The notes below the pieces were generated by a model. It was not told the DNA's origin. It saw only the letters and a program-made list of their open reading frames with translations, and made no database searches. Source: Candidatus Obscuribacterales bacterium (GTDB taxonomy: Bacteria; Cyanobacteriota; Vampirovibrionia; Obscuribacterales; Obscuribacteraceae). From it: a DNA stretch of 46,589 bases. Shown here one piece after another: positions 10,963 through 46,589 of the stretch (position 1 is its first letter; each line of letters begins with the position of its first letter). The stretch is from NCBI GenBank assembly GCA_019745505.1, contig JAIETE010000028.1, positions 1-46,589 on the forward strand, in the 5' to 3' direction. The translations under genes were made by a program, and so were the position numbers.

Positions 10963-10980
10963 GGCGGCAATGCTGCCGCC
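10963..10980. terminator. Hairpin between convergent genes
   Basis: GGCGGCA-ATGC-TGCCGCC is a 7-bp perfect stem with a 4-nt loop, between the convergent esterase and Spy-like genes. It could serve both strands. No strong T-run follows on either side. Confidence 0.45.
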
Positions 10981-10999
10981 CTTACGATCGTTGTCGCGA

Positions 11000-11560: not shown

Positions 11561-11650
11561 GATGCAATTACTCCTTAATCGCACTAATACTCACCGACTG
11601 GAACAGCATCCACGTGGAGCTCTCCAAAATTCGGCGCAGCCATTTTTGCT

Positions 11651-11660
11651 TACAACTGTA
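11651..11660. promoter_or_regulatory. TACAnnTGTA palindrome, possible BlaI/CopY-type operator
   Basis: TACAACTGTA matches the known BlaI/MecI/CopY operator pattern TACAnnTGTA and lies about 90 bp upstream of the Spy-like start. CTTAC and GTAAG flank it loosely. A single 10-bp site with eight fixed positions can occur by chance in a window this size, and no BlaI-type repressor gene is present here. Confidence 0.25.
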
Positions 11661-11695
11661 TAGACGTAAGGTTGCGAAAAAAAGTTCAAAGAAAA

Positions 11696-11726
11696 TCGCT
11701 GCCAAAACAAAAAAGTTTGGCAGCGA
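11696..11726 (-). terminator. Rho-independent terminator after the 50-residue membrane gene
   Basis: An 11-bp perfect stem (arms 11696-11706 and 11716-11726) with a 9-nt loop. On the minus strand it is followed by a T-rich stretch (TTTTCTTTG). It lies 132 bp after the stop at 11858 and before the Spy-like gene. Confidence 0.65.
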
Positions 11727-11857
11727 CATATAAATATGAATCTCAGAGGGTCTAAAGTCTCGTTTGACCGCTGTTTCCCGATCAAACAGCCAGACGGAGC
11801 CGGCGTCGCCCCGCCTTAATATTGAATTGTGCCGACCCTTGAATCAGCAGCTTTGAA

Positions 11858-12010
11858 CTAGCCGTTCGAATCTGACGAACCGCCACCGGATGCGGCGGCA
11901 GCTTCAGCTTTCTTGTCTTTGAGACGCTTCCAGGCTTTTGCCAAGCCGATAATTACCAGCGGCATTGCAAGAACGCAAACCAGAACGAGCGGATCTTGAA
12001 ATATCTCCAT
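11858..12010 (-). CDS. 50-residue single-pass membrane protein
   Basis: The frame runs from ATG 12010 to TAG 11858-11860 and has a strong RBS, GGAGGAGCAAC, just before the start. The product has a hydrophobic segment from about residues 7 to 24 (PLVLVCVLAMPLVIIGLA), then a basic KAWKRLKDKK stretch and an Ala/Gly/Ser tail, so the C-terminus should be cytoplasmic. A terminator follows at 11696-11726. The RBS, membrane pattern and terminator together make this a credible small gene. The family is not recognised; small membrane regulators of larger complexes look like this. Confidence 0.7.
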   Translation of the reverse strand: MEIFQDPLVLVCVLAMPLVIIGLAKAWKRLKDKKAEAAAASGGGSSDSNG

Positions 12011-12350
12011 GTTGCTCCTCCACGAGCCAGACTTAATGGTATTGCTACCCCGTACCCTCTATTGACTTCCAACGAGGCAATTGTCTTGGCCTCAGATTTA
12101 TTCCCGGGTCACCGGTACCAAAACATAGTACCTCAATTTTTTTAACTTCCACGAAATACTTATGTACGGTCTGGCAATTCATTCAGACGGGCGCGTGTAG
12201 TTTTCCAAAGACTCGCCGATCAGTCACCATTGGTGGTGCACACATCAGCGCTCACGGCGACACGCTTTTCCAAGATTGCAACAAAGCAGCAAAACGCCCG
12301 GAACTAAATGAAGGCCGACAACTTAACGGTCGGCGTTAATAGATTAAACT
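12011..12350. other. Non-coding stretch with little visible structure
   Basis: No coding frame with a plausible RBS is seen. The only structure noted is a short dyad, GCCGAC to GTCGGC, at about 12313-12334 just before the promoter of the next operon. Confidence 0.5.
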
Positions 12351-12379
12351 TTGACATATAAAGGATGAGTTTCTGATAT
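12351..12379 (+). promoter_or_regulatory. Candidate sigma-70 promoter of the tal-pgi operon
   Basis: A perfect -35 TTGACA (12351-12356) is followed after 17 bp by TGATAT (12374-12379), a weak -10. It would give a leader of about 170 nt before the tal-pgi start. Confidence 0.45.
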
Positions 12380-12394
12380 CTTTGGTCCGTTCTG

Positions 12395-12429
12395 TTGCCA
12401 GGGAATCTAGCGATGTCCCGCGATGGCAA
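12395..12429 (+). promoter_or_regulatory. Leader hairpin of the tal-pgi transcript
   Basis: TTGCCA (12395-12400) pairs with TGGCAA (12424-12429), with an inner GGGA/TCCC helix and an unpaired GCGA. It lies in the long 5' leader. No known riboswitch is recognised. Confidence 0.35.
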
Positions 12430-12557
12430 GGGCGGCCGCTATTGACGCGGTACAACCGTGCCATTTGAGAGCCACCCCTCTTTGCAACCAGTGTCAGAGG
12501 GCAAGCTCAACGTAACCAAGGCAAAGCATCAGACCAGCTGCTCACAGGAGAGAGAAA

Positions 12558-30921: not shown

Positions 30922-31506
30922 TTAGCGAACGAGTCCCCAGGCGCCTTCCACAGTGTGGTGAGACAAGACCATGCGAAGATGACGGATTACGGAGCGCAAA
31001 CCCTGCGCATCGCAATCAGACGGCGCAGTGAACAGCAACGCCTTCAACGATACGATTGCGGTTTTGAGAACTTCGATACTTTCGGTTTCATCAACCAGGT
31101 CGAGACAGTCAGCAACACGATCGCCCCAGAGGCGCGCACGCCTCTTCACTTCAAATGGCAGTTTCCTGTAGCTAGCCTGACTGCGAGCAGGAGAACCATC
31201 CAGCAAGATGTTATTGATTACCCACTGGCGTTGCTCGTCATACCCATGACCGAGCGCGAACAGATTACGGCTGGGGTCGCCATAAAATAGATATTGCTCG
31301 ACAGCTTGAATAATCTCTTTGGTCGGCTTCGGACCAGCTAGATTGCGAGCGTAATAGCCGCGCCCTTTGCGCCAGGCACCAGGTATGATACCAGGCGGCA
31401 ATCCACCGAATATATCCCTGACCTCTACTAGATTGTCTTCGAGTTCAGAAATCGGACAAATATACTCTTTCAGATAACTGATGTTACTGGGCAGCTCTTG
31501 CAACAA
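30922..31506 (-). CDS. Hypothetical soluble protein
   Basis: The product is 194 residues. The start is TTG 31506 (or the next TTG), because an in-frame stop precedes it; GAGG lies upstream at suitable spacing. It has no signal peptide or membrane segment. A Gly/Pro-rich N-terminal part (FGGLPPGIIPGAWRKGRGYY) precedes mostly helical sequence (YRKLPFEVKRRARLWGDRVA, LKTAIVSLKALLF). It converges with the TPR-membrane gene. No family is recognised. Confidence 0.5.
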   Translation of the reverse strand: MLQELPSNISYLKEYICPISELEDNLVEVRDIFGGLPPGIIPGAWRKGRGYYARNLAGPKPTKEIIQAVEQYLFYGDPSRNLFALGHGYDEQRQWVINNILLDGSPARSQASYRKLPFEVKRRARLWGDRVADCLDLVDETESIEVLKTAIVSLKALLFTAPSDCDAQGLRSVIRHLRMVLSHHTVEGAWGLVR

Positions 31507-31801: not shown

Positions 31802-33613
31802 TTACCAGGAATCAGTGCCGCCGCCGCCAAATCCGCCGCCGCTGAATCCGCCGTCAAATCCACTGAATCCGCCACCGCCGCCGAAGCCACCCCAGCCACC
31901 ATCACCGCCACCACTACCGCCACCGCCGGAATATCCGCCTTGAAAGACCGGCGGTTGCGTGAAGCCTGATTGAATCGAATACATCCCCCGTCCGAGATCA
32001 TCGAAATACCAAACCGGATCGAATGTGGAATAGCTCGCGCCATCGGTATAGGGCTGATACCAATCAGGCGGAGTGACCAGCAATTCTTTGAATTTTTCCG
32101 CCCACATATCCGCACAGCCCAGGACCATGGCATAGGGCAAGAGACGACCAAAAATTGTCGGATCATCTTTTGCAAGCACAGCGATTCTCTGCTTCTCGGC
32201 TTTTTCTACGAATCGTTTGAAAGATAAACATTCAGAAAGCGCCTTCGAGCCCAACTCCGTGCGCGCAGGCATAGCACCTGCAGCTAGAATGGTTATCAAA
32301 CCGGAGAGCACGAGACCACCACCGCCGGCGACACCATCATTCCAGGTATGCACGGCCATATAAAGACCGGCGACGAGAATCAAACCAAGTCCAAGAGCAC
32401 GGAAAAATGCACGATCAGATTCCGGGTGCCGCGTAAAGTAGCCACCATTCAATAGCTGTGTCCAAATGGAATTCTTGATGTCTACGATATGCGGCTGAAA
32501 TTTTCCTTGCAGCGTAGATAAATAGGTCGTATCGCACACATATCCAAAAAGCGCTGCCATGAAAAACGTTTCGTGCTGTTTGAGCGGAATGGCGTTGTAT
32601 GGCGGAGACAACTTCTTGAACTCGTAGTCTTTGTCACTCATCATCAAGATGCCGTTGTAGGGAATCTGACGAATTCTGAGATAGCCTCTTGCAGCAAGGT
32701 CAATAAGTGTGGAAGTCACATCGGGCATGTCGACTTTCTCATCGATTAAGGTTCCGACTTCTGCAGGCGTGAGATCAGACGGAGGAGTAAACTCAACACC
32801 CACAGCGCGTCGAGGCCCCTTGTCTTTGCCCTGAAATAACCAGTATAGATACAACATGATTGAAGTGCCAAGCGGCAGCACAACTAGCGGATACCAGTCC
32901 AAGAACCAATCTTTAGCTTGCTGGACTCTAGTCGGCTGAGGAATCGCAGAAGCCGGCAGCCCTGCAACAATAGTCAGTCCTTCTCCGGGTGCCAAATTCT
33001 TGGCACTGAAAATGATGTTGTTAGAATCACGTGTCACCGACGCATGTTTCTTCGAACCGAAGAAGCCAACATAAGAGGTTGTCTTGATGTCTTTTATGCT
33101 CACGCCGGACGGAAAGGAGAGTTTCGCAGTGGCGGAGTCAACCGGATACTTTCCCTCGTTGCCGTTGACGTTCCAATAGAACTCAGGTCCGCCTTCGAGG
33201 TAATTGATGGCTCGGCGAACATCATAATCAATCTTGTAAGTCATGTATCCAGACACAAGAACATCCGGATCACCTATCTGCAAAATTATCTCGCGGTTCG
33301 CTCTGTGCGTCTCATACCGGTACGGATTGCCTCTTTGATCCTTTACGCCGGTGAAGTTCAGCACCAGGTTGTATAAGCCGCCTTGGCGGTTGTAGACGAT
33401 CGGAATGAAGCGTCGAATGCCATGCCGTCGATTGGTGCCGAAATCCATGACCAGGGTTTCTTCAATGTGCGCTGTACCATCTTTGGCAAGTGTGATGTCC
33501 GCATTGAATGATTTGATTCGCTCGGCGAGCGCAGGACTTGTCGAGACAATAAGGAAGCACGCCAGTAAGGTCAGCCTCGTCAGTCCGGCGACCTTGGAGC
33601 TGAAAAATTTCAT
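31802..33613 (-). CDS. DUF2207 membrane protein with Gly-rich tail
   Basis: The product is 603 residues from ATG 33613 with GAGGT upstream; the frame is open to 33763 but that part has no domain. The signal peptide is LTRLTLLACFLIVSTSPALA. The predicted extracytoplasmic DUF2207 domain follows, with SFNADITLAKDGTAHIEETL and the RRHGIRRFIPI motif. Transmembrane helices lie near residues 240-262 (YPLVVLPLGTSIMLYLYWLF) and in a pair near 430-475. The cytosolic part has the DUF2207 pattern TPAEVGTLIDEKVD and TSTLIDLAARGYLRI. The last 45 residues are Gly/Ser-rich, ending GGGGTDSW. DUF2207 proteins commonly pair with LemA, and lemA lies across the divergent cluster at 39100. Confidence 0.85.
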   Translation of the reverse strand: MKFFSSKVAGLTRLTLLACFLIVSTSPALAERIKSFNADITLAKDGTAHIEETLVMDFGTNRRHGIRRFIPIVYNRQGGLYNLVLNFTGVKDQRGNPYRYETHRANREIILQIGDPDVLVSGYMTYKIDYDVRRAINYLEGGPEFYWNVNGNEGKYPVDSATAKLSFPSGVSIKDIKTTSYVGFFGSKKHASVTRDSNNIIFSAKNLAPGEGLTIVAGLPASAIPQPTRVQQAKDWFLDWYPLVVLPLGTSIMLYLYWLFQGKDKGPRRAVGVEFTPPSDLTPAEVGTLIDEKVDMPDVTSTLIDLAARGYLRIRQIPYNGILMMSDKDYEFKKLSPPYNAIPLKQHETFFMAALFGYVCDTTYLSTLQGKFQPHIVDIKNSIWTQLLNGGYFTRHPESDRAFFRALGLGLILVAGLYMAVHTWNDGVAGGGGLVLSGLITILAAGAMPARTELGSKALSECLSFKRFVEKAEKQRIAVLAKDDPTIFGRLLPYAMVLGCADMWAEKFKELLVTPPDWYQPYTDGASYSTFDPVWYFDDLGRGMYSIQSGFTQPPVFQGGYSGGGGSGGGDGGWGGFGGGGGFSGFDGGFSGGGFGGGGTDSW

Positions 33614-33759
33614 TGAGACCTCTTGTCTTTGAAACAACTTGGGTTTGAAAAAACGACTTGGGTTACAAATCAGGTGGGCGTATCTTTTACTAAGCGACTG
33701 ACGATGTTGAAAACTATTACCATTCTTATCGTTCGGACGCCTGGCAACCCCTTCTTTAA

Positions 33760-35997
33760 TCAAACAATTATATATGAGTCTTCCTGCAGAGCTGAAAGTT
33801 CAACACCCACCCAGGCAGCAGTTTCGAAGCGCTCATCTAGGGCATTGGCAGTGAGTTTGGCGACGATCGCGTCGAATTTAGGTGACAGGCCTGCCACTTT
33901 TTCAGCAGGATGCAACTGAGTAATGGGCGGCGGGTCGGAGCCGACAGTCAAGAAGTAGAGCGTAGCGCCCAGGGCATACAAATCGCTTTGCGGACAAGGC
34001 TGTCCTCGGAATTGTTCGGCGGGGGTATATGAATGCTTGCCTACGCAATCTCCGTCTTTGACATTAATGGAACTGCCGGCCACGCTGAAGTCAATCACTT
34101 TGATGCTGGCGTCCGGCATCAAGATAATGTTGTCCGGCGTGAAATCGCGATGAACAATCGGCGGAACGATCGAATGCAAATAGGCGAGCACCTTACACAT
34201 CTCACAACCCAGGCGTATCGCTTCCGCCTCAGAAATTGGTCCTTTGGTTGCGACTAGTTGACGCAGCGATTGTCCTTCCACGTGCTCGAGAACCAAATAG
34301 ACACGGCGGTCCTCAGTGAAAACGTCTTGAAGCTTCACGATATTTGGATGATCGAGCCGGGCGAGAATCGAGCCTTCGTTCTCAAAGTCAGCGGCGGATT
34401 CAATCAAGTTGCCCATGTCGTCGTCACCAGTCAAAATAAATTCTTTGATGACGACCGATTGATCATCTGCATTGCGCGCCAGATAAACATTCGCCTGTCC
34501 GCCCGATTCAAGCTTGCCGGTGACTGTAAGTTTTCCGCCCCTCAGAGTATCTCCAGCCTCCAGCAATTCTCTGCGTTGACGATCAGCATTAGAAGTGAGC
34601 AAATCAAACCAAATCTGCGTGTATCGAGTTTCGGCAAGAACACTCGAACCCAAAAGCACTTGCTGTACTCCATCAGGAATCACCACTAACGGTGCCCATT
34701 TTCTTACCGCATAGAAAACTCGAGCTCGATCGTCCTTATTCATTTGCCAAAGACGCAATTTAATTGACTGCCCGACAGAACCCGACGTGCGGAATTCAAG
34801 ATAGTCACATCGTCCGACTCTGTCGACAATGGCATCTGTGAATGCCGCTACTCGGTTTAGAACTCGGTAGACTACACTTTCTTTAGAAAAGAGTGAATCC
34901 GGCAGAGGATACAAACGGCCGAATCCTCCTTGCGTTACCTTGACCTGGTCCAAGTCTTTCCACTTGATTTTGACCGGCAAATAGTCCGGATAACAAAACC
35001 ACATCAGCTCGGCAAACCAGCCTTTTATATTCTTCTTTTCGATGAATTTCTCGTCCAGCACGACATCGTATGCAGTGCTGCTGAAGTTGAGGGGATAAGT
35101 AAACCAAGCACGAAAGAAAAGTGCACTCATACACCAGCCGATGCTGGAGATGTAAAAGCCAATCAAAATGATTACTTTTGTGAATTGCGGATCTCGAGAC
35201 GGATACCCAAGTAGCGCATCGATTCCGAAGAAGTTATACACGCCGATGGTGGCTGCTGCTGGAATGCCCAGGGTAAATATAGCCATGAGGGTAATCGCGA
35301 ACGCCGGAGAATGGTAGAAGTTGGCTTCCTCATCCTCGACAGGTTTTGAGACTGTCTGCTCGATGATGATCTTGTCGGGTGAAAATAGATCGGCACGAAC
35401 GTAATTCTCTCTTTTCGAGAACATTTTTCCGACGAACGTGACGAACATCCAGATAACAATTAGTGGTCCAAACCAGAGCGCGACACCCGCCATCAAAAAT
35501 GGGCGGATCTGTCCGACACCCTCGTAAAAGTAGCCCCCGTACTTGTTTACATATCTCAGGCGAGCGACCAACCTCTCAAATTTTTGACGCGGTCCGGCGG
35601 GAAGAAATTTGCGGAGTTCTTGATACGCGAATACAGTCAGCACCACCAGCATAATCGGCAGAAGAACTTTTGGCAGAAGGAACAACGTCACAGGCACAGC
35701 GAAAATCATTGATAAAACCAGCCAGGGCTTCTCTTTGATCAATTGTTGAAACTCTAGAACGAATTTATGCGCGCCAATGAAAGTCGTCCACGGCTCAGAC
35801 GCGGGCGCACTCAACAATTCGCAAACGGCCTCAGCAGTGGCTTCGGGCGCATTTTTCGAAACTGGTTCAGCGGCACCATCAGATTGCACCGAGACAATTA
35901 GATCGGAAAATTCCTTCACGACAAGCTCAGGACTCTCTTCGAGAGTGGTTGCAGGCTCGACGTGATTGCCAATTCCCTTGCGCCTTTTCGTAGTCAT
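33760..35997 (-). CDS. Membrane Ser/Thr protein kinase with C-terminal kinase domain
   Basis: The product is 745 residues. The first 470 contain two pairs of membrane helices (PWLVLSMIFAVPVTLFLLP, ALWFGPLIVIWMFVTFVG, FAITLMAIFTLGIPAAATIG, ILIGFYISSIGWCMSALFF) and a PH-like segment with KIKWKDLDQVKV. The kinase domain, about 480-740, has a Gly-rich loop ESGGQANVYLA, Lys in VVIKEF, Glu in FENEGSILARL, and HRD at 616-618 with TPDN. The usual DFG reads DFS (636-638). TPAEQ replaces APE. It should autophosphorylate or phosphorylate cytosolic or membrane partners; the DFS variant may alter Mg handling. It overlaps the upstream kinase gene by 1 bp and lies upstream of DUF2207. Confidence 0.9.
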   Translation of the reverse strand: MTTKRRKGIGNHVEPATTLEESPELVVKEFSDLIVSVQSDGAAEPVSKNAPEATAEAVCELLSAPASEPWTTFIGAHKFVLEFQQLIKEKPWLVLSMIFAVPVTLFLLPKVLLPIMLVVLTVFAYQELRKFLPAGPRQKFERLVARLRYVNKYGGYFYEGVGQIRPFLMAGVALWFGPLIVIWMFVTFVGKMFSKRENYVRADLFSPDKIIIEQTVSKPVEDEEANFYHSPAFAITLMAIFTLGIPAAATIGVYNFFGIDALLGYPSRDPQFTKVIILIGFYISSIGWCMSALFFRAWFTYPLNFSSTAYDVVLDEKFIEKKNIKGWFAELMWFCYPDYLPVKIKWKDLDQVKVTQGGFGRLYPLPDSLFSKESVVYRVLNRVAAFTDAIVDRVGRCDYLEFRTSGSVGQSIKLRLWQMNKDDRARVFYAVRKWAPLVVIPDGVQQVLLGSSVLAETRYTQIWFDLLTSNADRQRRELLEAGDTLRGGKLTVTGKLESGGQANVYLARNADDQSVVIKEFILTGDDDMGNLIESAADFENEGSILARLDHPNIVKLQDVFTEDRRVYLVLEHVEGQSLRQLVATKGPISEAEAIRLGCEMCKVLAYLHSIVPPIVHRDFTPDNIILMPDASIKVIDFSVAGSSINVKDGDCVGKHSYTPAEQFRGQPCPQSDLYALGATLYFLTVGSDPPPITQLHPAEKVAGLSPKFDAIVAKLTANALDERFETAAWVGVELSALQEDSYIIV

Positions 35998-38906
35998 TAC
36001 AGCGTCTCTTGGTTGATTTGCCTTTCGACCTTAACTTTCTTCTTCTGTCGCGCGCTCACCTTCAGTGTTTTCTCCGGAAGCGCATCGGCCAACAATTTAA
36101 TCGTTCGTGCCGCGTCTGCTGCATCCGACTCATGCTCATTCGAAGAATTATCGGCTTGCTCGACAACGGTTATCGGCGCAACCTCCGACACAAGCCCGGG
36201 GTGCGTTTCCGGCACTGGCACTGGACTTTTATTGAGCACGGACAGCAAAACCTGCCTTACAACCTGAATATTTTCAGGTCTCAGCTCTTCCTCGAAATCG
36301 GTCATGGACTTGATCAAATTGCTCATCAGTTGAGCCGAAGTGCCCGAGCCCAATTCCGGCTGGCATTGCATTAGTGCGACCGGCTCTTTTGCGGTCAGCA
36401 AATAGTTCATCGTCACTCCCAGGCTGTAGATATCACTGCGCTTGGAAGCTTTGCCTCGCAACTGTTCCGGAGCGACGTAGCTCTGTTTGCCGATCAAAGT
36501 TCCCGTAATACCCTCAATGAATTGGTGGGCGGCACCGAAATCAATCAAACGGGCCCCATCGTACTCACCGACAACGATGTTCTCGGGCGTCACATCTCGA
36601 TGAATGATGTCCTTCGAGTGCAGATAGTCGAGCACATCGCAAAGACTCAGTGCCCAGGTGGCAACATCTTCGATGCTTCGCGCACCATAAGTATCGACAA
36701 TAAATTTCAAATCATGTCCCTTGAAATGGTCGAGAAGCAAGAAATGATTGTTGTCCTTACTGAAGGCATCGATCACGCCGGCAATGCCCACATGATTCAA
36801 TGCCCGCATAACTTCGCACTCCCTTTGAAAAATGCGCAGATGCTCTTTGGACGCTTCATCGTCTTTCGGCATGACCAATTGTTTCAGTACCGCCAGCTTG
36901 CCAGTGGCGAGCCGCACCAGATAAACAGCTGAAAGCGGCTTATTAGCAAGCACTTTCACGATACGAAGGTCGTGGCTCTCCAGTTTTTCGCCACCTGCAA
37001 ATGGAACGAAGATAGAGGACTTGAATTTACCGCGCCGTACATGAGGGTCGGATGATGACTTAGCCTCAGCGCCTTTCGATAGTTTTACTCTCAGCTCCAC
37101 AATATCAGCGCTTAGTTCACAGTCTTCGGCATGCTCGTCAACGCGCTCGAGCAACAGGCGCAAGTCTTCGGGAGGCATGTCCATCACTCTGAAAGACAGC
37201 GAGCCGCCGGTGCGAAAACAAATTTTGACGCGACGCTTATCTTTTGCATATTCGATATCGGGAACGCACTTGCCTTTGAGCGTGACTGACTTTATGTCCA
37301 CATATAGCCTGAAAGTGCGCAACCACATCGAAGCAAAGGGCCCGTCAGGAGCCGAGATACCATCTTCATTGACGATGATTCGACGTCCCGCCCGGTGTGG
37401 CAGGAATACGCAACCCGTAACAGCCAATGGACCTGATGCGTACATCGCCAAAACGGCAGCCATAAAATAGCGCATGTTCAGATTGTATTCAGTCGAGACG
37501 TGCCGCAGCCCACTGTCGACAATGGAGAAGTCCAACCAATTGCGAATGGCAATACCGAGTCCGCCGCCAGTGAATGCGACCAGAGAAAATACCACCGCAT
37601 ACCAAAAGAGCAACCACCAGAATGTGCGAGCCGCATGGGCAAAAAATCTGCTCTCATATTTAAGGCGCAACTTGTCGCCGGTCGCTCTCACCGCGGCAAG
37701 AGTAGATTCGGCCAGGCCTAACTTACCGGCTGCCCCCATCAAGCGGCGCATCAGCGCGGCATAAAATGCAGCACCCCGCATGACCAGCGAAAAGGGCAGA
37801 ACAAAGAGTCCAATTGCCACCAAGCACTTAACTATGAAAGTGACTACGCTTTCTTCTTTCAGCGCCCCAGATTCCTCTGTGGGAAGACCTGGAGGATCCC
37901 TCAATGCCGGCAACAGACCAGATTGATTTTCGCCCGTTCCGGGCGAGTTGGCAAAAGCGTCACCGCCATTGAATTCAGATTCCATAATGGTGACCGCTGG
38001 ATTGTCCACACCGTCGGCAAACGGATCTGCTGCAGGCGCCAAAAGACGGCTGTGTTTGCTGTAGACCGCACTTTCTTGCAAAGGATAAATATTGGCATCC
38101 CGAGCAGAAATTATGAATTGATTGGCCAACATATCTCCCACACTGCCCTGTGGAAAGCTGAGAAAGAAGACAATTCCCGCATACCAGACCAAAAAAGCGT
38201 ACACAGGCAATTCAGCTACGCATTGTTTAGTCGCCCGCCGCAAATAACTTGCAAATCTGTGCATCAATGATTGGCGAGAACGACCCGCTAATGTTTCACT
38301 CTTAGCGCTCCAACATCTGGAAAGTCTTCCAATTCCTATGAGGGGAAGAGAAATCAACGCCAGAGCAGAGAGCGCATAGGTGTTGAACATAATTGGAAGC
38401 GCAGCTTGCATGCCTGTGGGGCGGACGAATAGAGGCGTATGCAAAAACATGTCGCCCGCAACCGTGGCGATGTATCCGAATGAAATGCTCAACGCGCCGA
38501 TAGTTATCCAGCGCCACTCTCGTGACGTGAATTTTGTCACCGTGGACACCAGGCAAAACAGCAAGGCCCAGGATGCCAGATCTTGCATACAACTGGCTAT
38601 GCCGTGTTTTAAGAACTGATAGACCATCGAACCGGCGGCTAACGAAAGAAAAAATGCGTTGAAGCTGAAGGGAGACTTCTGACAAATCTCGGTAATACGA
38701 GCAGACAGCGGAGAATACAGCTTAGCGTACCGTATGAAAAATCCGCAGGCACAGAGAAGCATGCACGTCACAGAAACACCGTGCGTCCCCTGAAGCAAGA
38801 AACCGACAACCAGGGCAGTCGAAGTTATCCACTGGATTCGGCTTTCGAGCTCACGCGGCGACAGAGATCGGAGTCGACCGGTTTCTTCTTGCGGCAGTTG
38901 TAGCAT
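35997..38906 (-). CDS. Large membrane Ser/Thr protein kinase with C-terminal kinase domain
   Basis: The product is 969 residues. About 640 N-terminal residues carry many helices (ITSTALVVGFLLQGTHGV, SLAAGSMVYQFLKHGIAS, LFCLVSTVTKF, FLVWYAGIVFFLSF, LVAIGLFVLPFSLVM, WWLLFWYAVVFSLVAFTG) and a PH-like stretch near IIVNEDGISAPDG. The kinase domain (about 640-895) has Lys in AVLKQL, HRDVTPEN (769-776) and DFG (789-791), plus APEQ. The Gly-rich loop is replaced by VLANKPLSAVYLVR. A tail rich in Pro/Lys follows. Its TAA and the next gene's ATG share one base (TAATG), so they are translationally coupled. It is the first gene of the leftward arm of the divergent cluster. Confidence 0.9.
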   Translation of the reverse strand: MLQLPQEETGRLRSLSPRELESRIQWITSTALVVGFLLQGTHGVSVTCMLLCACGFFIRYAKLYSPLSARITEICQKSPFSFNAFFLSLAAGSMVYQFLKHGIASCMQDLASWALLFCLVSTVTKFTSREWRWITIGALSISFGYIATVAGDMFLHTPLFVRPTGMQAALPIMFNTYALSALALISLPLIGIGRLSRCWSAKSETLAGRSRQSLMHRFASYLRRATKQCVAELPVYAFLVWYAGIVFFLSFPQGSVGDMLANQFIISARDANIYPLQESAVYSKHSRLLAPAADPFADGVDNPAVTIMESEFNGGDAFANSPGTGENQSGLLPALRDPPGLPTEESGALKEESVVTFIVKCLVAIGLFVLPFSLVMRGAAFYAALMRRLMGAAGKLGLAESTLAAVRATGDKLRLKYESRFFAHAARTFWWLLFWYAVVFSLVAFTGGGLGIAIRNWLDFSIVDSGLRHVSTEYNLNMRYFMAAVLAMYASGPLAVTGCVFLPHRAGRRIIVNEDGISAPDGPFASMWLRTFRLYVDIKSVTLKGKCVPDIEYAKDKRRVKICFRTGGSLSFRVMDMPPEDLRLLLERVDEHAEDCELSADIVELRVKLSKGAEAKSSSDPHVRRGKFKSSIFVPFAGGEKLESHDLRIVKVLANKPLSAVYLVRLATGKLAVLKQLVMPKDDEASKEHLRIFQRECEVMRALNHVGIAGVIDAFSKDNNHFLLLDHFKGHDLKFIVDTYGARSIEDVATWALSLCDVLDYLHSKDIIHRDVTPENIVVGEYDGARLIDFGAAHQFIEGITGTLIGKQSYVAPEQLRGKASKRSDIYSLGVTMNYLLTAKEPVALMQCQPELGSGTSAQLMSNLIKSMTDFEEELRPENIQVVRQVLLSVLNKSPVPVPETHPGLVSEVAPITVVEQADNSSNEHESDAADAARTIKLLADALPEKTLKVSARQKKKVKVERQINQETL

Positions 38907-38936
38907 CTTTAGTAAGCGCCGTAATGGTGCGATTTA

Positions 38937-38966
38937 AGGGTATGTCACCGCAGCCATGGTTGTCAA
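38937..38966 (-). promoter_or_regulatory. Candidate promoter of the kinase operon
   Basis: On the minus strand TTGACA (38961-38966) is followed after 18 bp by TACCCT (38937-38942), a weak -10. It would start the kinase-kinase-DUF2207 transcript about 25 bases before the ATG at 38906. Confidence 0.35.
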
Positions 38967-39070
38967 GAGAAGAAATGATGAAGGCAGACAGGGGTTTAAC
39001 CTGTTGACAAAGAGCCGAAAACCGCTAGCAGGGGCGTTGCCAACCGGCAAAACCCTGTTCTATTCGGAGG

Positions 39071-39076
39071 TATAAT
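39071..39076 (+). promoter_or_regulatory. Candidate -10 element of lemA
   Basis: A perfect TATAAT on the plus strand 24 bp before lemA. No good -35 lies 16-18 bp upstream, so it may need an activator. Confidence 0.35.
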
Positions 39077-39099
39077 CGAACCACCATCTGGAGGTTCGT

Positions 39100-39729
39100 A
39101 TGTACATCGCAATCGGAATGCTGGTTTTCCTGGGAGTCATAGCCCTCTGGATGGTCGGCACATACAACCAACTGGTCATGCTCAGACAGAGCGTCAGGGA
39201 AAGCTGGTCGGCAATTGAGACCGAGCTGCGACGACGTTATGACTTGATTCCCAATCTTGTCGAAACTGTCAAAGGTTATGCCGGACATGAGAAGGAGACT
39301 CTGGAGGCGGTTATCAAAGCGCGAAACAGCGCCGCCGCTGTTTCCGGCGCACCGGAAGCTCAAGCACTGGCAAACAATGCTCTGACCGGCGCCCTGACAA
39401 AGCTTATGGCGCTCAGCGAAGCTTATCCGCAGTTAAAAGCCAACGAAAATTTCAATCAGTTGCAAAACTCGCTGAACGATACCGAAACAAGAATTTCTCA
39501 GGCCCGCCGTTTTTACAATGCGAACGTGCGCGAGATGAATACGGCGGTCGAAACCTTCCCTTCCGTTCTAATTGCCGGTCCCATGGGATTCAAACCGCAA
39601 ACTTATTTCGGAATCGAAGATCCCAATGCCTTCGATCCAGTGAAAATAAGCTTTGGCGGCAACAACGCCGCGCCGGAAACGGGTGGAGTAATAAAGCTCA
39701 ATTCTGCAATCGAAGAGAAGAGGAATTAG
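39100..39729 (+). CDS. lemA: LemA family membrane protein
   Basis: The product is 209 residues from ATG 39100, with GGAGG at 39090-39094. One N-terminal membrane helix (IAIGMLVFLGVIALWMVG) is followed by the LemA signature: YNQLVMLRQSVRESWSAIET, RRRYDLIPNLVETVKGYAGHE, ARRFYNANVREMNTAVETFP. The rest is a four-helix bundle on the far side of the membrane. The biochemical role of LemA is not settled; pairing with DUF2207 and TPM-type proteins is common. It begins the rightward arm of the divergent cluster and lies 30 bp before the response regulator. Confidence 0.93.
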   Translation: MYIAIGMLVFLGVIALWMVGTYNQLVMLRQSVRESWSAIETELRRRYDLIPNLVETVKGYAGHEKETLEAVIKARNSAAAVSGAPEAQALANNALTGALTKLMALSEAYPQLKANENFNQLQNSLNDTETRISQARRFYNANVREMNTAVETFPSVLIAGPMGFKPQTYFGIEDPNAFDPVKISFGGNNAAPETGGVIKLNSAIEEKRN

Positions 39730-39759
39730 CCGAGAGCAAGGCTCCAGGCTCTAGAAAAC

Positions 39760-40446
39760 ATGGCAAAAATACTGATAGTTGAAGACGACCTGGATCTTCG
39801 TCAAATCGTCGAAGATTGGCTCAAACACGATCATCATCTTATCGAAACAGCCTCAAAGGGCGATGAGGCGATGGAACTGATCGGCATCTATCCATATGAT
39901 TTGATCATTCTCGACTGGCAGCTGCCGGTGTTCGACGGCATTCAGATTTTGAAGAAGTTTCGCCAGGATGGCGGAAAAACGCCGGTGCTGATGCTGACCG
40001 GTCAAGATCTGGCCGAACAGATCGAGCAGGGGCTCGATTCAGGCGCAGACGATTATTTGACCAAACCATTTCACATGAAAGAGCTTTCTGCGCGCATTCG
40101 AGCATTGCTGCGACGACCGCAAACAGTGACCGACAATGTGCTCAAGGCAGCCGATATAAGCTTGAATCCTCGCACCTTTGCAGTCACCAAAGGTGGTGCC
40201 GACATTCGCCTTTTGCCTAAGGAATTTGCCTTGCTGGAATTTCTGATGCGCCATCCGAATCAAGTCTTCAGCGCAGAAGCTTTGCTCGACAGAGTCTGGC
40301 GCTCGGAGAATGACGCCGCGCCCGAGACTGTTCGCACCTGTATCAAGCGGTTGCGCAGAAAAATCGACGCCGACAGCGAGGAATCCGTGATTCAAACATT
40401 GCATGGAGTCGGCTACAAACTCCATGCGCCGGAATTGAAAACCTAG
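39760..40446 (+). CDS. OmpR/PhoB-family response regulator
   Basis: The product is 228 residues. The REC domain has the EDD acidic pocket at residues 8-10, phospho-acceptor Asp52 (ILDWQLPVFDG), Thr in LMLTGQD and Lys in LTKPFH. The C-terminal winged-helix domain shows LLPKEFALLEFLMRHPNQVFS, and PETVRTCIKRLRRKI is the recognition helix, with the GVGYKLH wing. It should bind DNA as a dimer when phosphorylated. The partner kinase is the next gene (40579). Confidence 0.95.
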   Translation: MAKILIVEDDLDLRQIVEDWLKHDHHLIETASKGDEAMELIGIYPYDLIILDWQLPVFDGIQILKKFRQDGGKTPVLMLTGQDLAEQIEQGLDSGADDYLTKPFHMKELSARIRALLRRPQTVTDNVLKAADISLNPRTFAVTKGGADIRLLPKEFALLEFLMRHPNQVFSAEALLDRVWRSENDAAPETVRTCIKRLRRKIDADSEESVIQTLHGVGYKLHAPELKT

Positions 40447-40538
40447 TCGCACAGCCTGTACGCTGGACCGAATTAGCAGCCGGCAGCGGACTTGCGGGCA
40501 CTATCGGGGTATAACACCTTTGGATGCCTTAACTAACG

Positions 40539-40559
40539 CGCCCGTCCGAGATTCGGGCG
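40539..40559 (+). other. Hairpin between the response regulator and histidine kinase genes
   Basis: CGCCCG (40539-40544) pairs with CGGGCG (40554-40559) with a 9-nt loop, about 20 bp before the kinase GTG. No T-run, so it is more likely a processing or translational feature than a terminator. Confidence 0.35.
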
Positions 40560-40578
40560 GCAAATAAATCGGTACGCT

Positions 40579-42474
40579 GTGAGACTTAAGCTCTCCCACA
40601 AAGGTTTAATCCTTGTAGCCATCCCTCTCATTTTCGAGTTGGGATTCGTAGCGACGCTTTACCAGATGCTCAATGAGACGGAAAAGGAGGTACAGCGCGA
40701 GGCGCGAGCGCGTGCCATATCGAAAGAGCTGAATAAACTGCACTCATTGATGACCCAGCAAGCTGCCGGTATTTCGGGCTATGGGCTGATTGGCACTTTC
40801 AGCATGGCAAAACGTTATCAGCATGCCTCAGAATTGATACCGGAAGTCTTCAAAGAATTGAAGCGGCTGGTAGCGGGAAACAAGGAGGAGGAAAAGAAGG
40901 TTGACGACCTGGAAGCCTTCCTCAATAGCGCAGTTTCGGACTTTCGCTCCGTCAAACAAATGATCGACTCGGGAGAGCAAGCATCGGCTCGCAGCTACCT
41001 CAACTCTATGCGCAGCAAGATTCCCATGCTGGCGGCAAAATTCGACACGCTTGCAGTCGAGGAGCGCAAGATCGAAGACCTCAGCCCCAAGCTTCAGGCT
41101 GAATCACGAGACAAAACAAAACAGCTTCTGCTCGCCGGCGTGGCGCTCAACATCATCATTGCGGTTTCCCTTGCCGTCTATTTCAACCGCGGCACAGCTC
41201 GCCGTCTCAACGTGCTCATGGACAACACTTACAGGCTGGCGAGCGGTCTGCCTCTCAATCCACCGCTGCCTGGAGGAGATGAAATCGCCCACCTCGACAA
41301 GGTTTTCAACAAAATGGCGGTGGCATTGAAAGACGCCGCAGAAAAAGAGCGCGCCGTTTTGGAAAATTTGCAGCAATCGGAAAGACGAGTGCGAACGATC
41401 GTAGAAACAATGCCTACCGGATTGGTCATCATCAACAAAGAAGGCTTAATAGAATCGATCAACCCGGCCACCGAAAGGATGTTCGCTTATGATATCGCCG
41501 CGCTCGCAGGCCAGCCGGTGCAGAAGTTGTTTCCCAAAGAAGTGGCATCTGGTGTGGAGGACATACTGCAAAAGCTTCTCACAAAAGGACGCCAGCACAT
41601 CTTGGATCTGGAAGCTGAAAAGGCTGACGGGCAATCATTTCCGGTCGAGGTTTCGGTGAACGAATTCGAAGCATTCGAAGGGGCGCGATACATGCTCGTC
41701 ATCTTAGATATTTCCGAACGTCGCGAAGTGCAGCGTATTAAACAAGAGTTCGTATCCATGGTCAGCCACGAATTGCGCTCACCGCTAACATCCGTGCAAG
41801 GTTTTCTCTACATGCTGGCGGAGGATATTTACGGCAGCCTCAACGAGCAAGGCAAGAAGAACGTTCTTCTTGCAGAGCGAAATGTCACTCGACTAATCAA
41901 ACTGATCAACGATCTGCTCGATATTGACAAACTGGAAGCCGGGCGCCTGCGAATGAATTTCAAGCACACCGATCTCGATCAAGTGATTGAACGCGCTTTC
42001 GACGCTGTTCACAACCTTTCGCAGATGGAGCAAATCAAGCTTGAAAAATCAGGAATGTCAGTACAGCTGATCGCAGATCCGGATAGACTCGTTCAAGTGC
42101 TCGTAAATTTGCTCTCCAATGCAATCAAATACTCGCCGCCGAAGAGCAAAATAACCGTCGACACGTCGGTCACTGCATCGCTTACTGAAGTAAAAGTAAT
42201 AGACAGGGGAGCCGGAATACCTGAAAAATATCATCAATCGATTTTTGAGCGCTTTGAACAAGTAAACACCCCGGACCGCTCTCAAAAAGGCGGCAGTGGC
42301 TTGGGTCTGGCGATTTGTAAAGCAATAGTAGAGCAGCACGGCGGGCAAATAGGGCTCGCATCAGAAGAGGGCAAAGGCAGCACGTTTTGGTTTAAACTAC
42401 CGGAATCTCCGCCCGGCTACGATGACCTCGATGACGAGGAAGACGAAAAGGATGGAGACGAAAACGAAAATTGA
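40579..42474 (+). CDS. CHASE3-like membrane histidine kinase with HAMP and PAS domains
   Basis: The product is 631 residues from GTG 40579. TM1 is near residues 8-28 (GLILVAIPLIFELGFVATLY). An extracytoplasmic helical sensor of about 150 residues (QQAAGISGYGLIGTFSMAKR) looks like CHASE3. TM2 is near 180-200, then HAMP, PAS (VRTIVETMPTGLVIINKEG), HisKA with His397 (SMVSHELRSPLTS), and HATPase (LLSNAIKYSP, DRGAGIPEK, GSGLGLAICKAIVEQHGG). The last 16 residues are acidic (Asp/Glu). It follows its response regulator by 132 bp. Its coding region overlaps the next gene by about 23 bases. Confidence 0.93.
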   Translation: MRLKLSHKGLILVAIPLIFELGFVATLYQMLNETEKEVQREARARAISKELNKLHSLMTQQAAGISGYGLIGTFSMAKRYQHASELIPEVFKELKRLVAGNKEEEKKVDDLEAFLNSAVSDFRSVKQMIDSGEQASARSYLNSMRSKIPMLAAKFDTLAVEERKIEDLSPKLQAESRDKTKQLLLAGVALNIIIAVSLAVYFNRGTARRLNVLMDNTYRLASGLPLNPPLPGGDEIAHLDKVFNKMAVALKDAAEKERAVLENLQQSERRVRTIVETMPTGLVIINKEGLIESINPATERMFAYDIAALAGQPVQKLFPKEVASGVEDILQKLLTKGRQHILDLEAEKADGQSFPVEVSVNEFEAFEGARYMLVILDISERREVQRIKQEFVSMVSHELRSPLTSVQGFLYMLAEDIYGSLNEQGKKNVLLAERNVTRLIKLINDLLDIDKLEAGRLRMNFKHTDLDQVIERAFDAVHNLSQMEQIKLEKSGMSVQLIADPDRLVQVLVNLLSNAIKYSPPKSKITVDTSVTASLTEVKVIDRGAGIPEKYHQSIFERFEQVNTPDRSQKGGSGLGLAICKAIVEQHGGQIGLASEEGKGSTFWFKLPESPPGYDDLDDEEDEKDGDENEN

Positions 42475-44095
42475 CTCTGCAAAGCAGTCGAAAAACGCGG
42501 CGACCATTATGGCGAGAAAGATAACAGCAACAAGACTTGTTTCGGACGTTTCATACAAACGTCAATTCTCCGCAGCGCTGGCAACGGTACTTTTTCTTGC
42601 TGCGACCATACCTGCCAATGCTGATGAAAGCCCAGCCGAAAGCAAAGCAATTAAGAGCTTTGCCGTAGACAGCGAAACAACAAGACAAGACAAACCAGTT
42701 GCCAGCAACGTCACGCATGCCGCGTCGGCATCGCTCAACCAACCGGTTCCGTCGAACGCCAGTATGTTCGACCGCCTTATGAATGCCGGTTTAAAAGCAT
42801 CTGCAATCAGAGCCGATGAAGAAGCGGAGAGCAAACTATTGGAGGCGATCAAGGAAGCCAAAAAGCTGTTCGCCACTACCGATCAGTTGATTGCCGCGCG
42901 CCTGGCACTCGCAGACACTTATCTGCATGAAGAGAAGTACATTTCAGCAAACGAGCTGTTTCAGCAGAGTTGCGATCTTTCGCGCAAACTGTACGGCACT
43001 GAGAGTCGAGAATATGCTCACGCATTGTACGGACTTGCCGCAGCAGCGTATCACCAGGGCAAGTTCGCCAAAGCAGAACCATTGATCAAAGAAGCGCTGG
43101 AAATCAGAAAGAGATTGCTGGATCCGCACGACCACGATTTAGGCGAGAGCTACATAATCCGAGGAGCAATTGCAGGAGCAAAGGGATGGACAGAAGAAGC
43201 CCATGCCGATTTTCAAAAGGGTCTTGAAATTTTAGAACAGAGCCCCGGCCAGCGTTCGCTCGATCTTGCCGACGCACTTCGCGAAGCGGCTGTGTTTTAT
43301 CATTCGATCGGCAAGCGCAGTCGCTCACGCGATTATTTTGAGCGCAGCTACAGCATCAAGGACAAATCGGTAAACTTTGAGCAACCTCCGAAAATCCAGG
43401 GTTGTGTGCGCTTCAAGTGGGAAGATGGCAGCCCTCGCTCTCAAGAATTTGCTGACGCCGATTTTCCGCTCAAGTATTTAGCTACCAATCAAGTGCGCGT
43501 TGCATGCACGATTGTCGATTGCTGGGAAGTGATTGGCGTTTTGATTTGCATTACCAACATCGCAGACAAGCGAGTCGACCTGGGTTTAGGCAAGGCAAAC
43601 CTGACCGAACTTGCCGAGCCGCACAAGCCGTTTCTCCTGATTCCGGAAAACACATTTGATTACCGGCGCCGCGAACGAACAATGTGGGACTATACATACA
43701 ATCGCCCCTGGTTGGCTAACATCCAAAAGACACGCGTAGTTCGCGGTTTCGTGCCGTCAAAGGGACACGATATGTTCCGCGGACCCAATATATTCGGCAT
43801 CTACGGAAAATGGGGCGGCACACAGCGTATATTGCCGCCGGAAAAATTCATGCTCAATCGCTCGCCCGAAGAGCTGGAAGAACAAGCACAAGCCGTTGTC
43901 GAGGAAGATCTGGTTCGCTCACGAAATCAAGGCGCATTTGGACTGGTACCTGTGACATTAGAACCTTTCGAGTCAAGAACGGGCCAGCTGTTTTACCTGA
44001 ATACACGCAAAGAAGAAGTGATGATTACTGTTCCGGTCGGCAATACGATTTTTACCTTCCCGTTTCACGCGCCCAAGCGCCGTTTTCCAGGTTAG
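42452..44095 (+). CDS. Exported TPR protein with unknown C-terminal domain
   Basis: The product is about 547 residues from ATG 42452 (RBS GAGGA about 11 bases upstream); ATG 42422 and ATG 42509 are in-frame alternatives. It overlaps the kinase gene in another frame. A signal-like hydrophobic stretch follows a basic N-terminus (FSAALATVLFLAATIPANA). Residues about 100-300 hold TPR_12-type repeats (YISANELFQQSCDLSRKLYG, EYAHALYGLAAAAYHQGKFA). The C-terminal 240 residues have no family I recognise but contain conserved-looking aromatic motifs (TMWDYTYNRPWLANI). Cotranscription with the two-component genes suggests a sensing or envelope partner. Confidence 0.8.
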   Translation: METKTKIDSAKQSKNAATIMARKITATRLVSDVSYKRQFSAALATVLFLAATIPANADESPAESKAIKSFAVDSETTRQDKPVASNVTHAASASLNQPVPSNASMFDRLMNAGLKASAIRADEEAESKLLEAIKEAKKLFATTDQLIAARLALADTYLHEEKYISANELFQQSCDLSRKLYGTESREYAHALYGLAAAAYHQGKFAKAEPLIKEALEIRKRLLDPHDHDLGESYIIRGAIAGAKGWTEEAHADFQKGLEILEQSPGQRSLDLADALREAAVFYHSIGKRSRSRDYFERSYSIKDKSVNFEQPPKIQGCVRFKWEDGSPRSQEFADADFPLKYLATNQVRVACTIVDCWEVIGVLICITNIADKRVDLGLGKANLTELAEPHKPFLLIPENTFDYRRRERTMWDYTYNRPWLANIQKTRVVRGFVPSKGHDMFRGPNIFGIYGKWGGTQRILPPEKFMLNRSPEELEEQAQAVVEEDLVRSRNQGAFGLVPVTLEPFESRTGQLFYLNTRKEEVMITVPVGNTIFTFPFHAPKRRFPG

Positions 44096-44248: not shown

Positions 44249-45013
44249 ATGGTCAATGTCAACAACTTTGAAAACGCCTCTCAGCTCAGGGAATTGATGG
44301 ATAAACCCCGAGCGGATTTCTCGCATCTTTTTTCAGAACTGAAAATGTCCGAGATGCAGACTTTGAGCAGCAGTTATCAAAATACGAGCAAAGACTACCT
44401 GCCGGGCCTGCAATTGACTCCCGACAGAGGGGATGCAGCACCTGCCAGAAGGCAAACCTTGGAGGACCGCTCGGCTGCATTCGCTCCCTCCATGGCGCAA
44501 CGAATTCCCTTCATAAGCGAGATTACACCGGAATTCATGAAGAGCGTGAAGGAGCAATTGAACAGCATGGTTCAGATGTTTGCCGGTGATTCGAAAGCGC
44601 CCCAGGAAAGGGCAGCGGAAAAACCTCAGTTTGGCGATTACGGCAGCAAGGGGCAAGCGCGAGAAGCGATTCTGTCAACAACCATCAGGCCGAGCGTAAA
44701 TAACGGATATAGAGAAATAAACACACTGAAGGGCACAAACGACGTAGTCTCTACTGTCGATGTCTACCTTGATCCGAAAACTCAGTCGATTACAAGGCTG
44801 ACGCGCATGGCGGATGGAAAAATGTTTTCCATCGAGACTGAAAACAAGGACAAAAGTCGCGAGGTGATCACATTTGACGAGAATGAAAAAAAGATGTCTA
44901 CGCAGTTATTGCTTCCAAACGGAGGATACGAGTGGAGAGATGCCAACGATAAGGTCGTCTTCTCGAACATCAGGCAGAAGGATGCGGAGGTATCGGCGAA
45001 AACTCGCAAATAA
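44249..45013 (+). CDS. Hypothetical soluble protein
   Basis: The product is 254 residues from ATG 44249 with GAGGT nine bases upstream. There is no signal peptide. The N-terminal half is polar and disordered-looking. The C-terminal half has alternating strands (VVSTVDVYLDPKTQSITRL, KMFSIETENKDKSREVITFD, YEWRDANDKVVFSNI), resembling a small beta-rich domain. No family is recognised. It converges with the next gene. Confidence 0.55.
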   Translation: MVNVNNFENASQLRELMDKPRADFSHLFSELKMSEMQTLSSSYQNTSKDYLPGLQLTPDRGDAAPARRQTLEDRSAAFAPSMAQRIPFISEITPEFMKSVKEQLNSMVQMFAGDSKAPQERAAEKPQFGDYGSKGQAREAILSTTIRPSVNNGYREINTLKGTNDVVSTVDVYLDPKTQSITRLTRMADGKMFSIETENKDKSREVITFDENEKKMSTQLLLPNGGYEWRDANDKVVFSNIRQKDAEVSAKTRK

Positions 45014-45030: not shown

Positions 45031-45867
45031 CTAGCTCGATTGCGAATGCAATTCATGCTCGTAGCCTTCTTTGTAAGACGGAAATCTCAGATTCACCGAC
45101 AGTTTCTCCAGAGATTTTGCAGCATCGACTTTTCTATTGCCACGCTGCGTGTAGTGACATTGCTCCAGAGGTATGGACTCCGGAAAAGGCAATTCAAGGC
45201 GACTCACAAGCCATTCGACGATTTCTCTGTGGGTTGTCGGCTGAGTATCGCCACTCAAAAAAACTTGCCCTCTCTGATTCGTATTCAGCGCCATCATAAT
45301 CATTTGAGCCAGATCATCCACATGGATACGTGAAACATAATTGCTGCCGTCACCAGGCAGTCTATAAGTGCCACTTCTCAGCCTCTGGTGCAGCCCGCTG
45401 CCTCTTCCATAAATTCCGGGCGCTCGAATTATGGAGGCGCCAACTTGCAGCCACTTATTCTCAGCATCCAGGCGAGCCCTTGCTTGGGGGGATTGCGCAT
45501 CGACTTCCGTCTTCTCATCTACCAAGCCCTCGGTTTTTCCGTAAACTGCTGTGGACGAAATATACACGATGCCTGACGCACCTGCGGCAACGCTGCAAGC
45601 CACATCATCAGACACAGGATCGGGTGGGAATGAAACTACAACAAAGGCATCGGCGAGCAGATTTCCAAGGTTTTCAAAAGAATCGATGATTACCGGCTGT
45701 ATCCCTAGCGAACGAATTTCATCTGCGCGCTCTGCACTACGGGTAGTACCATATAGCAAATATCGATATGTTGCATCATCAGCCGAGCTCTGCAATGCAA
45801 TATCGGCCAATGCGCGCGCCACCTGGCCAACACCAAGAAATACAAGCTTTCTATCTATAATCGCCAT
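45031..45867 (-). CDS. NAD(P)-dependent epimerase/dehydratase family protein (YeeZ-like SDR)
   Basis: The product is 278 residues. The N-terminal Rossmann motif is VFLGVGQVARALA, an atypical GxGxxA form. ISSTAVYGKTEG holds the Ser/Tyr pair, with Tyr-x-Lys rather than the normal Tyr-x-x-x-Lys. IIRAPGIYGRGS and VSRIHVDDLAQMIM are typical of the extended/atypical SDR NAD-dependent epimerase family. Such proteins bind NAD(P) and act on nucleotide sugars or related ligands; the substrate is unknown. The start lies 6 bp after the upstream gene's stop, so they are probably one transcript. Confidence 0.82.
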   Translation of the reverse strand: MAIIDRKLVFLGVGQVARALADIALQSSADDATYRYLLYGTTRSAERADEIRSLGIQPVIIDSFENLGNLLADAFVVVSFPPDPVSDDVACSVAAGASGIVYISSTAVYGKTEGLVDEKTEVDAQSPQARARLDAENKWLQVGASIIRAPGIYGRGSGLHQRLRSGTYRLPGDGSNYVSRIHVDDLAQMIMMALNTNQRGQVFLSGDTQPTTHREIVEWLVSRLELPFPESIPLEQCHYTQRGNRKVDAAKSLEKLSVNLRFPSYKEGYEHELHSQSS

Positions 45868-45873
45868 GTGAAG

Positions 45874-46589
45874 TTATGGTCTGTCCCAACCCATTTCTTC
45901 TACGGCGTCATCGAAACTCACACGCATACGTTCGCAGTAATGCAAAGCGATAATTGCCTGCTCGACTTTCAGACGTTTTTGCTCAATCAGATCGTGACAC
46001 TGATTGGCAGCACCGAGTAAGACCTTATCGAGCTTGCCCGCCGCTGTAAGAATTTTCACAATATCACCGCCATGCTTCTTCTTCACGGTTTGTGCCGTTT
46101 GCACATCTTGCTCGGTCAGCAAGCCGGCCTTGACGAGCAGCCCGATCACTTTCGAATCCATTGAATTCTTCGCGATAGCTTTGCGTGCACTCTTAGCATC
46201 GACACCGTAATGCTCACGTATAAAGGCTTCAAGTGCCTCTTCTCGAGTGAGAGCACCGGTACGCACGACCTCCTGCAAGTTGAGTGCGGCTTTCAATACC
46301 GGAACACTGATAAGACCAGCCTCGATGAGCACCTGACCAAGGGGAGGCGCGGTCCCTTGAATATCGGAAGAATCGATTTTCTTAGCCGGGGTGGCAGTAA
46401 ATGTATTAGTGTCCACCTTACCGCCACGAGTATGGGCGCGACGAACAGCCTCACCTGCTTGTTTGGGATTAAGCGCACCGGCTTTTACCATTCCCTGCAA
46501 CTGCAAAGCAGCGTCAAGAGTCGGCTCGGGGATCAAACCAGCTTCTACAAGAAAATGTCCAAGCAAGAAGTTTGGACGCTTCTCGATCA
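45874..46589 (-). CDS. GspE-N/MshEN-like repeat protein, 5' end beyond the window
   Basis: The frame is open to the right edge: IEKRPNFLLGHFLVEAGL runs in from 46587, so the gene is cut or begins with an edge codon ending in TG at 46588-46589. At least 230 residues are present. Units LGHFLVEAGLIPEPTLDAAL, LGQVLIEAGLISVPVLKAAL and IGLLVKAGLLTEQDVQTAQ repeat the pattern of the 19321-20511 protein. Each is followed by VRTGALTREEALEAF-like or related sequence. It appears to be upstream of, and cotranscribed with, the SDR gene. Function unknown. Confidence 0.7.
   Translation of the reverse strand, partial: IEKRPNFLLGHFLVEAGLIPEPTLDAALQLQGMVKAGALNPKQAGEAVRRAHTRGGKVDTNTFTATPAKKIDSSDIQGTAPPLGQVLIEAGLISVPVLKAALNLQEVVRTGALTREEALEAFIREHYGVDAKSARKAIAKNSMDSKVIGLLVKAGLLTEQDVQTAQTVKKKHGGDIVKILTAAGKLDKVLLGAANQCHDLIEQKRLKVEQAIIALHYCERMRVSFDDAVEEMGWDRP

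Follow-up and report, generated by a model that had tools for sequence, protein, structure and literature searches.

Layered architecture of a LemA-DUF2207 envelope locus and its twin membrane kinases in Candidatus Obscuribacterales

The LemA locus described here appears, from comparison with related genomes, to consist of three layers of differing age and not of one conserved system. The explanation that we favor, with moderate confidence, is a layered and modular envelope cluster, in which a DUF2207/LemA core was joined by a two-component insertion and by a twin-kinase cassette acting as an A-B complex. The feature of the locus that goes beyond chance is the DUF2207-LemA core, which is conserved across genera. 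LemA and DUF2207 are widespread but unexplained proteins, and the natural gains and losses observed here provide a comparison series (with and without the two-component system, with and without the kinases, and with one deletion relic) that can reveal the core parts.

Organization of the locus

The window, i.e. the whole stretch of 46,589 nucleotides that was analyzed, is one complete contig of a 6.73-Mb MAG (84% complete) from an uncultured member of Candidatus Obscuribacterales (Obscuribacteraceae). The first-pass annotation had described two kinases and DUF2207 in one arm and LemA, a response regulator, a CHASE3-like kinase and a TPR protein in the other, separated by 193 bp. Every open reading frame named in it was found in its place in the ORF list, and Pfam confirmed all these parts with matches above the gathering cut-offs (N- and C-terminal domains of DUF2207, two Pkinase proteins, LemA, Response_reg plus Trans_reg_C, CHASE3/PAS/HisKA/HATPase_c, and TPR). 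The divide between the arms also proved exact (38907-39099). The features are as follows:

31802-33613, minus strand: DUF2207 membrane protein, 603 aa (Pfam PF09972 and PF20990; AF2 model; 18-row alignment)
33757-33775, minus strand: ATATATAATTGTTTGATTA element, last codons of K2 and start of the putative DUF2207 leader
33760-35997, minus strand: K2, B-type twin kinase, 745 aa (Pfam Pkinase, E=5e-33; motifs)
35997-38906, minus strand: K1, A-type twin kinase, 969 aa (Pfam Pkinase, E=3e-34; motifs, junction)
38907-39099, no strand: divergent 193-bp region (sequence comparison across congeners)
39100-39729, plus strand: LemA, 209 aa, one N-terminal TM segment (PF04011, E=5e-55)
39760-40446, plus strand: OmpR/PhoB-type response regulator (PF00072 and PF00486; orthologues at the equivalent position in seven genomes)
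40579-42474, plus strand: sensor histidine kinase, CHASE3-PAS-HisKA-HATPase_c (Pfam)
42509-44095, plus strand: exported TPR protein (Pfam; adjoins lemA or the two-component system in 15 genomes)
44249-45013, plus strand: orf254, protein without assigned function (also 3' of the TPR gene in G004 and G006)
45031-45867, minus strand: epimerase-like gene, closes the syntenic block (PF01370; synteny)
45874-46566: orf230, truncated at the contig end (about 560 aa in the intact homologues of congeners)

The starts of two genes were corrected. DUF2207 probably starts at ATG 33613 and not at TTG 33763, because this start gives a signal peptide and agrees with the relatives, and the TPR gene probably starts at ATG 42509 and not at 42422, because this start yields a signal peptide and lies 34 bp after the stop of the histidine kinase gene. 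Next to DUF2207 lies ORF194 (30922-31506), which is without a Pfam match but adjoins DUF2207 in all seven readable congeners with 86-97% identity and is thereby more conserved than most genes at the locus. Proteins similar to orf230 were found again near several signaling loci.

The DUF2207/LemA core is conserved across the order

LemA was searched in 60 relatives, and the kinases and DUF2207 in 50 genomes of the family, after which the neighborhoods were read. Both families of the order have the divergent DUF2207/LemA pair, with 20 genomes in total (17 genomes, with kinase-split pairs included and G021 left out, plus G064, G070 and G071), so that the previously proposed co-occurrence of the two genes extends to a conserved divergent pair. 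An exported TPR gene lies 3' of lemA, either directly or after two-component genes, in 15 genomes (in G014 as a partial match), and in five genera the block is rounded off by an epimerase-like gene together with an orf230 homolog. TPM or DUF3137 proteins take the place next to LemA in other families of the class. Since the pair recurs in 20 genomes across both families, the core is most probably an old and largely vertically kept envelope pair. The ancestral core would have consisted of the divergent DUF2207/LemA pair, with the TPR gene 3' of lemA in the genus of the window and in related genera. One locus of the order (L110 of G060, 8231-14449) has retained the DUF2207-TPR-epimerase-orf230 block while lemA is gone from it.

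The two-component genes are restricted to two sister genera

In seven genomes from only two sister genera, namely G000 (the genome of the window), G002, G004, G006 and all three sampled genomes of g14, genes for an OmpR-type regulator and a histidine kinase separate lemA from the TPR gene. The proteins have the domains of an OmpR-family two-component system (receiver and Trans_reg_C; HisKA and HATPase_c). The regulators of the two genera are orthologous, with 68-97% identity compared to at most 59% for the best paralog. Two-component genes are absent at the LemA locus of G001, G003, G007, G010, G019 and G064 and at the equivalent position in other genera, and a search for scars of them in G003 and G007 found none. 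The insertion of the two-component system behind lemA would thus date back to the ancestor shared by the two sister genera.

The histidine kinase of g14 (L040, L107) has two PAS domains but gives no match to CHASE3, which suggests that its sensor part was swapped, while the regulator and the position were retained. Kinases of the WalK/PhoR/PnpS type likewise combine PAS-HisKA-HATPase_c with an OmpR-family regulator; however, the histidine kinase described here reaches no equivalog cut-off and its sensor part varies between the two genera. The genes for the regulator, the histidine kinase and the TPR protein lie close behind lemA in the same orientation, which makes transcription of the lemA arm the most likely target of the two-component system.

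A scan of the divergent region (38907-39099) for sigma-70 promoters and terminators gave nothing. It contains the sequence GTTGCCAACCGGCA (39036-39049; inverted repeat TTGCC-AACC-GGCAA) upstream of lemA, which is invariant in the three kinase-bearing species and is possibly a binding site of a regulator. The kinase-free congeners have CGTTGCCAGG nearby on the opposite strand. The -10-like sequence GGTATAAT (39069-39076) before lemA has a wider distribution than GTTGCCAACCGGCA.

K1 and K2 belong to a large family of twin kinases

Both K1 and K2 consist of TM segments, a middle domain and a kinase domain. The latter has a glycine-free P-loop (NKPLSAVYL), HRDVTPEN, DFG and APE in K1, and a GGQ P-loop, HRDFTPDN and DFS in K2; the K1 stop codon TAA and the K2 start codon ATG have one base in common (TAATG). 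The two proteins score 119 and 115 bits against the Hanks-type family PF00069 (cut-off 31.7), and the best Foldseek match of the K2 kinase domain is PknB. The catalytic Lys, the HRD Asp, the Asn and the DF Asp are present in both, but K1 lacks the P-loop glycines and K2 has DFS in place of DFG. With a deviating catalytic motif in each twin, their kinase activity must be regarded as uncertain. An identity as PASTA kinases of the PknB/Stk1 type (NF033483) was rejected, with 133.1 and 116.2 bits compared to an equivalog cut-off of 450. The middle domains (K1 about 500-610, K2 about 305-440) gave no Pfam match, and a PH-like fold suspected from the order of strands and helices was dropped in view of a K2 model confidence of about 60-87 and of 50 listed Foldseek matches that were all kinases.

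We define twin kinases as an adjacent pair of an A partner (DFG, aberrant P-loop) and a B partner (GGQ P-loop, DF[N/S/D/T/M]), both with HRDx[T/S]P[D/E]N in place of the canonical HRDxKPxN. By this definition K1 is an A and K2 a B partner. Pairs of neighboring genes with these non-kinase parts were found in 11 genera, for the most part at a distance from LemA. The genome of the window alone possesses about nine twin pairs and one further partner at a contig end, within about 109 kinase matches. Scanning public genomes with an alignment of B-type kinases yielded at least 80 loci, and together with the earlier loci at least 96 distinct A/B pairs were obtained (33760-38906 of the window, L090-L103, L112-L132 and L142-L221).

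Among the pairs listed, the A partners all have DFG and a P-loop that in nearly all of them lacks the third glycine (GGLSA as the commonest form, KPLSA in the K1 group), and the B partners always have DFN, DFS, DFD, DFT or DFM and nearly all the GGQ P-loop. The genes of these pairs overlap by exactly 4 nt in 38 of 96 cases and by 1 nt in 12. Among the matches listed, an adjacent A gene on the same strand accompanies 100 of the 104 B genes with enough context, and a B gene lies beside 100 of 101 A genes. The A and the B sequences each form a clade of their own in a FastTree phylogeny of the listed pairs (support 0.88 and 0.92), and a mirror-tree comparison of the two distance matrices gives a correlation of r=0.76 (maximum of 999 permutations: 0.19), a value to which a shared species history contributes in part. 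A and B therefore seem to be separate clades that are near-obligately adjacent and co-evolving. In one locus (L095 of G015, 7944-12117) catalytic motifs have been lost in both twins (HGG and AFG in K1; LRS and DLS in K2), which decayed together.

Of 53 genomes of the order, 50 have the signature HRDxTP[D/E]N, with up to 31 copies, whereas elsewhere in the phylum only five of 291 sampled genomes have it, with one or two copies each; a control read backward gave zero. The best matches of the B-type kinase of the window in named genomes, among the matches listed, belong to MAGs of Candidatus Obscuribacterales/Melainabacteria. Two apparent occurrences outside the order, labeled 'Actinobacteria bacterium' (L189) and 'Proteobacteria bacterium' (L159), were ruled out: equal match counts, and for L189 also equal coordinates, identify them as the Obscuribacterales genomes G010 and G014.

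In the literature searched we found no published description of such a family, and nothing relevant on a LemA/DUF2207/kinase system or on kinases of Obscuribacterales or Melainabacteria. The twin kinases thus represent a large and apparently undescribed family of coupled membrane kinases. Mycobacterium has a neighboring pair of Hanks-type membrane Ser/Thr kinases, PknA and PknB. K1 and K2 resemble them as two neighboring Hanks-type membrane kinases, but differ by their complementary deviations in catalytic motifs, the lack of PASTA domains and the many pairs per genome. A more far-reaching proposal, which we put forward tentatively and with somewhat less than even confidence, is that the twins are obligate partners from two anciently split lineages, of which about nine pairs per cell would work only as A-B complexes, each in a different membrane process, the pair of the window being plugged into the LemA-DUF2207 module. 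If biochemically confirmed, the family would be a bacterial kinase architecture with catalytic competence apparently split over two coupled genes, and it would open the signaling of a large uncultured non-photosynthetic order to tests with heterologously expressed pairs.

The kinase cassette, a probable later addition to the locus, was lost again in one species

Only G000, G002 and G004, three of the seven members of the genus with a readable LemA locus, have K1 and K2 in the space between lemA and DUF2207. The tree of DUF2207 plus LemA places G006 and the pair G003/G007, all without kinases at the locus, among the kinase-bearing genomes. G006 (L035) has a 52-nt relic of the 3' coding end of K2 in the spacer between lemA and DUF2207 (from about 10286; score 44-49 compared to a shuffle maximum of 26). 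The relic shows that the cassette was once present in G006 and later deleted, with LemA, DUF2207, the two-component system and the TPR gene retained. Since the rest of the locus stayed when the cassette was lost, the kinases seem to be dispensable add-ons. A kinase scar was also looked for in G003, G007 and G001 and none was found, which fits loss as well as primary absence.

The full set of LemA, DUF2207, kinases and two-component genes is confined to three congeners. Outside the genome of the window it was thus found in two congeners, but nowhere beyond the genus. The first-pass interpretation is supported insofar as the two-component system stays with the core in two genera; Ser/Thr phosphorylation as an integral part is not supported, the kinases being present at the locus in three species only, lost in G006 and represented by relatives of the K1/K2 pair elsewhere in 17 further genomes, which often are without a LemA match. 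The coupling of Ser/Thr and His/Asp phosphorylation at this locus therefore looks like a recent and partly reversed stacking of modules and not like a conserved design.

It is conceivable, although we consider it unlikely, that the twin kinases landed beside DUF2207 by chance and serve an unrelated process, and that the functional unit is confined to the LemA/DUF2207/TPR core. The genome contains about 109 Pkinase matches and at least 59 close matches to OmpR-type regulators, and two kinases within 12.3 kb are expected at approximately 2.3% of positions; in a genome so rich in both, the co-location of kinases and two-component genes is weak evidence when taken alone. Twin pairs have moreover expanded through the order in varied neighborhoods, and the loss in G006 also fits a chance arrival. 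The same is true for the element ATATATAATTGTTTGATTA, which comprises the last codons of K2 (SYIIV, stop) and the bases after them: since it also occurs 119-160 nt upstream of DUF2207 in the kinase-free congeners (in a shorter form in G001), DUF2207 appears to retain its own putative leader beside the K2 junction. However, the cassette lies immediately upstream of DUF2207 in the same direction, and this position is kept in all three species.

Even less probable is one integrated membrane-stress system kept across lineages, in which LemA, DUF2207, the kinases and the two-component system form one circuit with converging Ser/Thr and His/Asp phosphorylation: the adjacency of all parts in two divergent arms, the full set in G002 and G004 with K1 and K2 still in place at 59-75% identity, the 84% conservation of the 193-bp region among the three kinase-bearing species, and the defects in stress tolerance and biofilm formation of a mutant in the Streptococcus mutans DUF2207 protein SMU.243 (PMC10457818) would agree with it, but most LemA-DUF2207 genomes have no kinases at the locus, G006 deleted them and kept the rest, and two-component genes occur in seven genomes only and are missing from the six listed above.

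In the layered cluster that we prefer, the twin cassette (K1 as A, K2 as B) would have been placed between lemA and DUF2207, just upstream of and co-directional with DUF2207, and at least one species would have lost it since. Most likely, K1 and K2 would assemble into a heteromeric membrane kinase that phosphorylates a membrane neighbor, with the two non-canonical kinases complementing one another. The first candidate substrate is the cytosolic part of DUF2207, because the kinases are encoded upstream of it in the same direction. A coupling of the kinases to LemA, or a stress signal as the input, might be further elements of such a mechanism.

Properties of the DUF2207 and LemA proteins

LemA clearly belongs to its family (185.8 bits compared to a cut-off of 26.2, covering positions 1-149 of 149 of PF04011), is a helical protein with a single TM segment and has no second copy in its genome (one match). 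An identity as the magnetosome protein MamQ (NF040966) was discarded at 86.9 bits, compared to an equivalog cut-off of 250.

DUF2207 scores 94.5 and 110 bits against PF09972 and PF20990 (cut-offs 24.4 and 33). It is composed of a signal peptide, an exported beta-sandwich domain, a TM segment, a cytosolic part, further TM segments and a Gly-rich tail that ends in W. In the AF2 model (mean pLDDT 79) the exported domain mostly reaches 80-94 and would suit a role in sensing or ligand binding, and in segment 283-334 of the cytosolic part two helices are followed by two strands, an order that resembles a winged helix, as read from the secondary structure of the model only. In this model DUF2207 joins an exported sensor-like beta-sandwich domain via a TM segment to a cytosolic part of winged-helix-like layout. 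Foldseek matches to the beta domains of ribophorin and M1 aminopeptidases have TM-scores below 0.35 and say little on function, and a search of PDB sequences with the DUF2207 profile gave no match below E=0.05.

A LemA-DUF2207 gene pair has been noted in Proteiniphilum saccharofermentans and Pseudalgibacter, where the two genes are likewise encoded together and likewise without known function (PMC12631010). The locus described here differs by the divergent orientation of LemA and DUF2207, the TPR gene and the lineage-specific insertions of two-component and kinase genes. SMU.243 of S. mutans, which is tied to stress tolerance and biofilm formation, shares with our DUF2207 protein an exported N-terminal domain, a cytosolic part and a Gly-rich stretch, and thus a common topology; its neighbor, however, is uppP, and the respective paper discusses no LemA, kinase or two-component genes (PMC10457818).

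A second DUF2207 paralog (43%) is encoded elsewhere in the genome of the window (G000:C15:23332-24846; L111, 9146-11089). No LemA is encoded in its neighborhood, which is kept in G006 and partly in G070 and comprises proteins similar to orf230, a kinase-like protein of divergent sequence and a large protein with a receiver domain.
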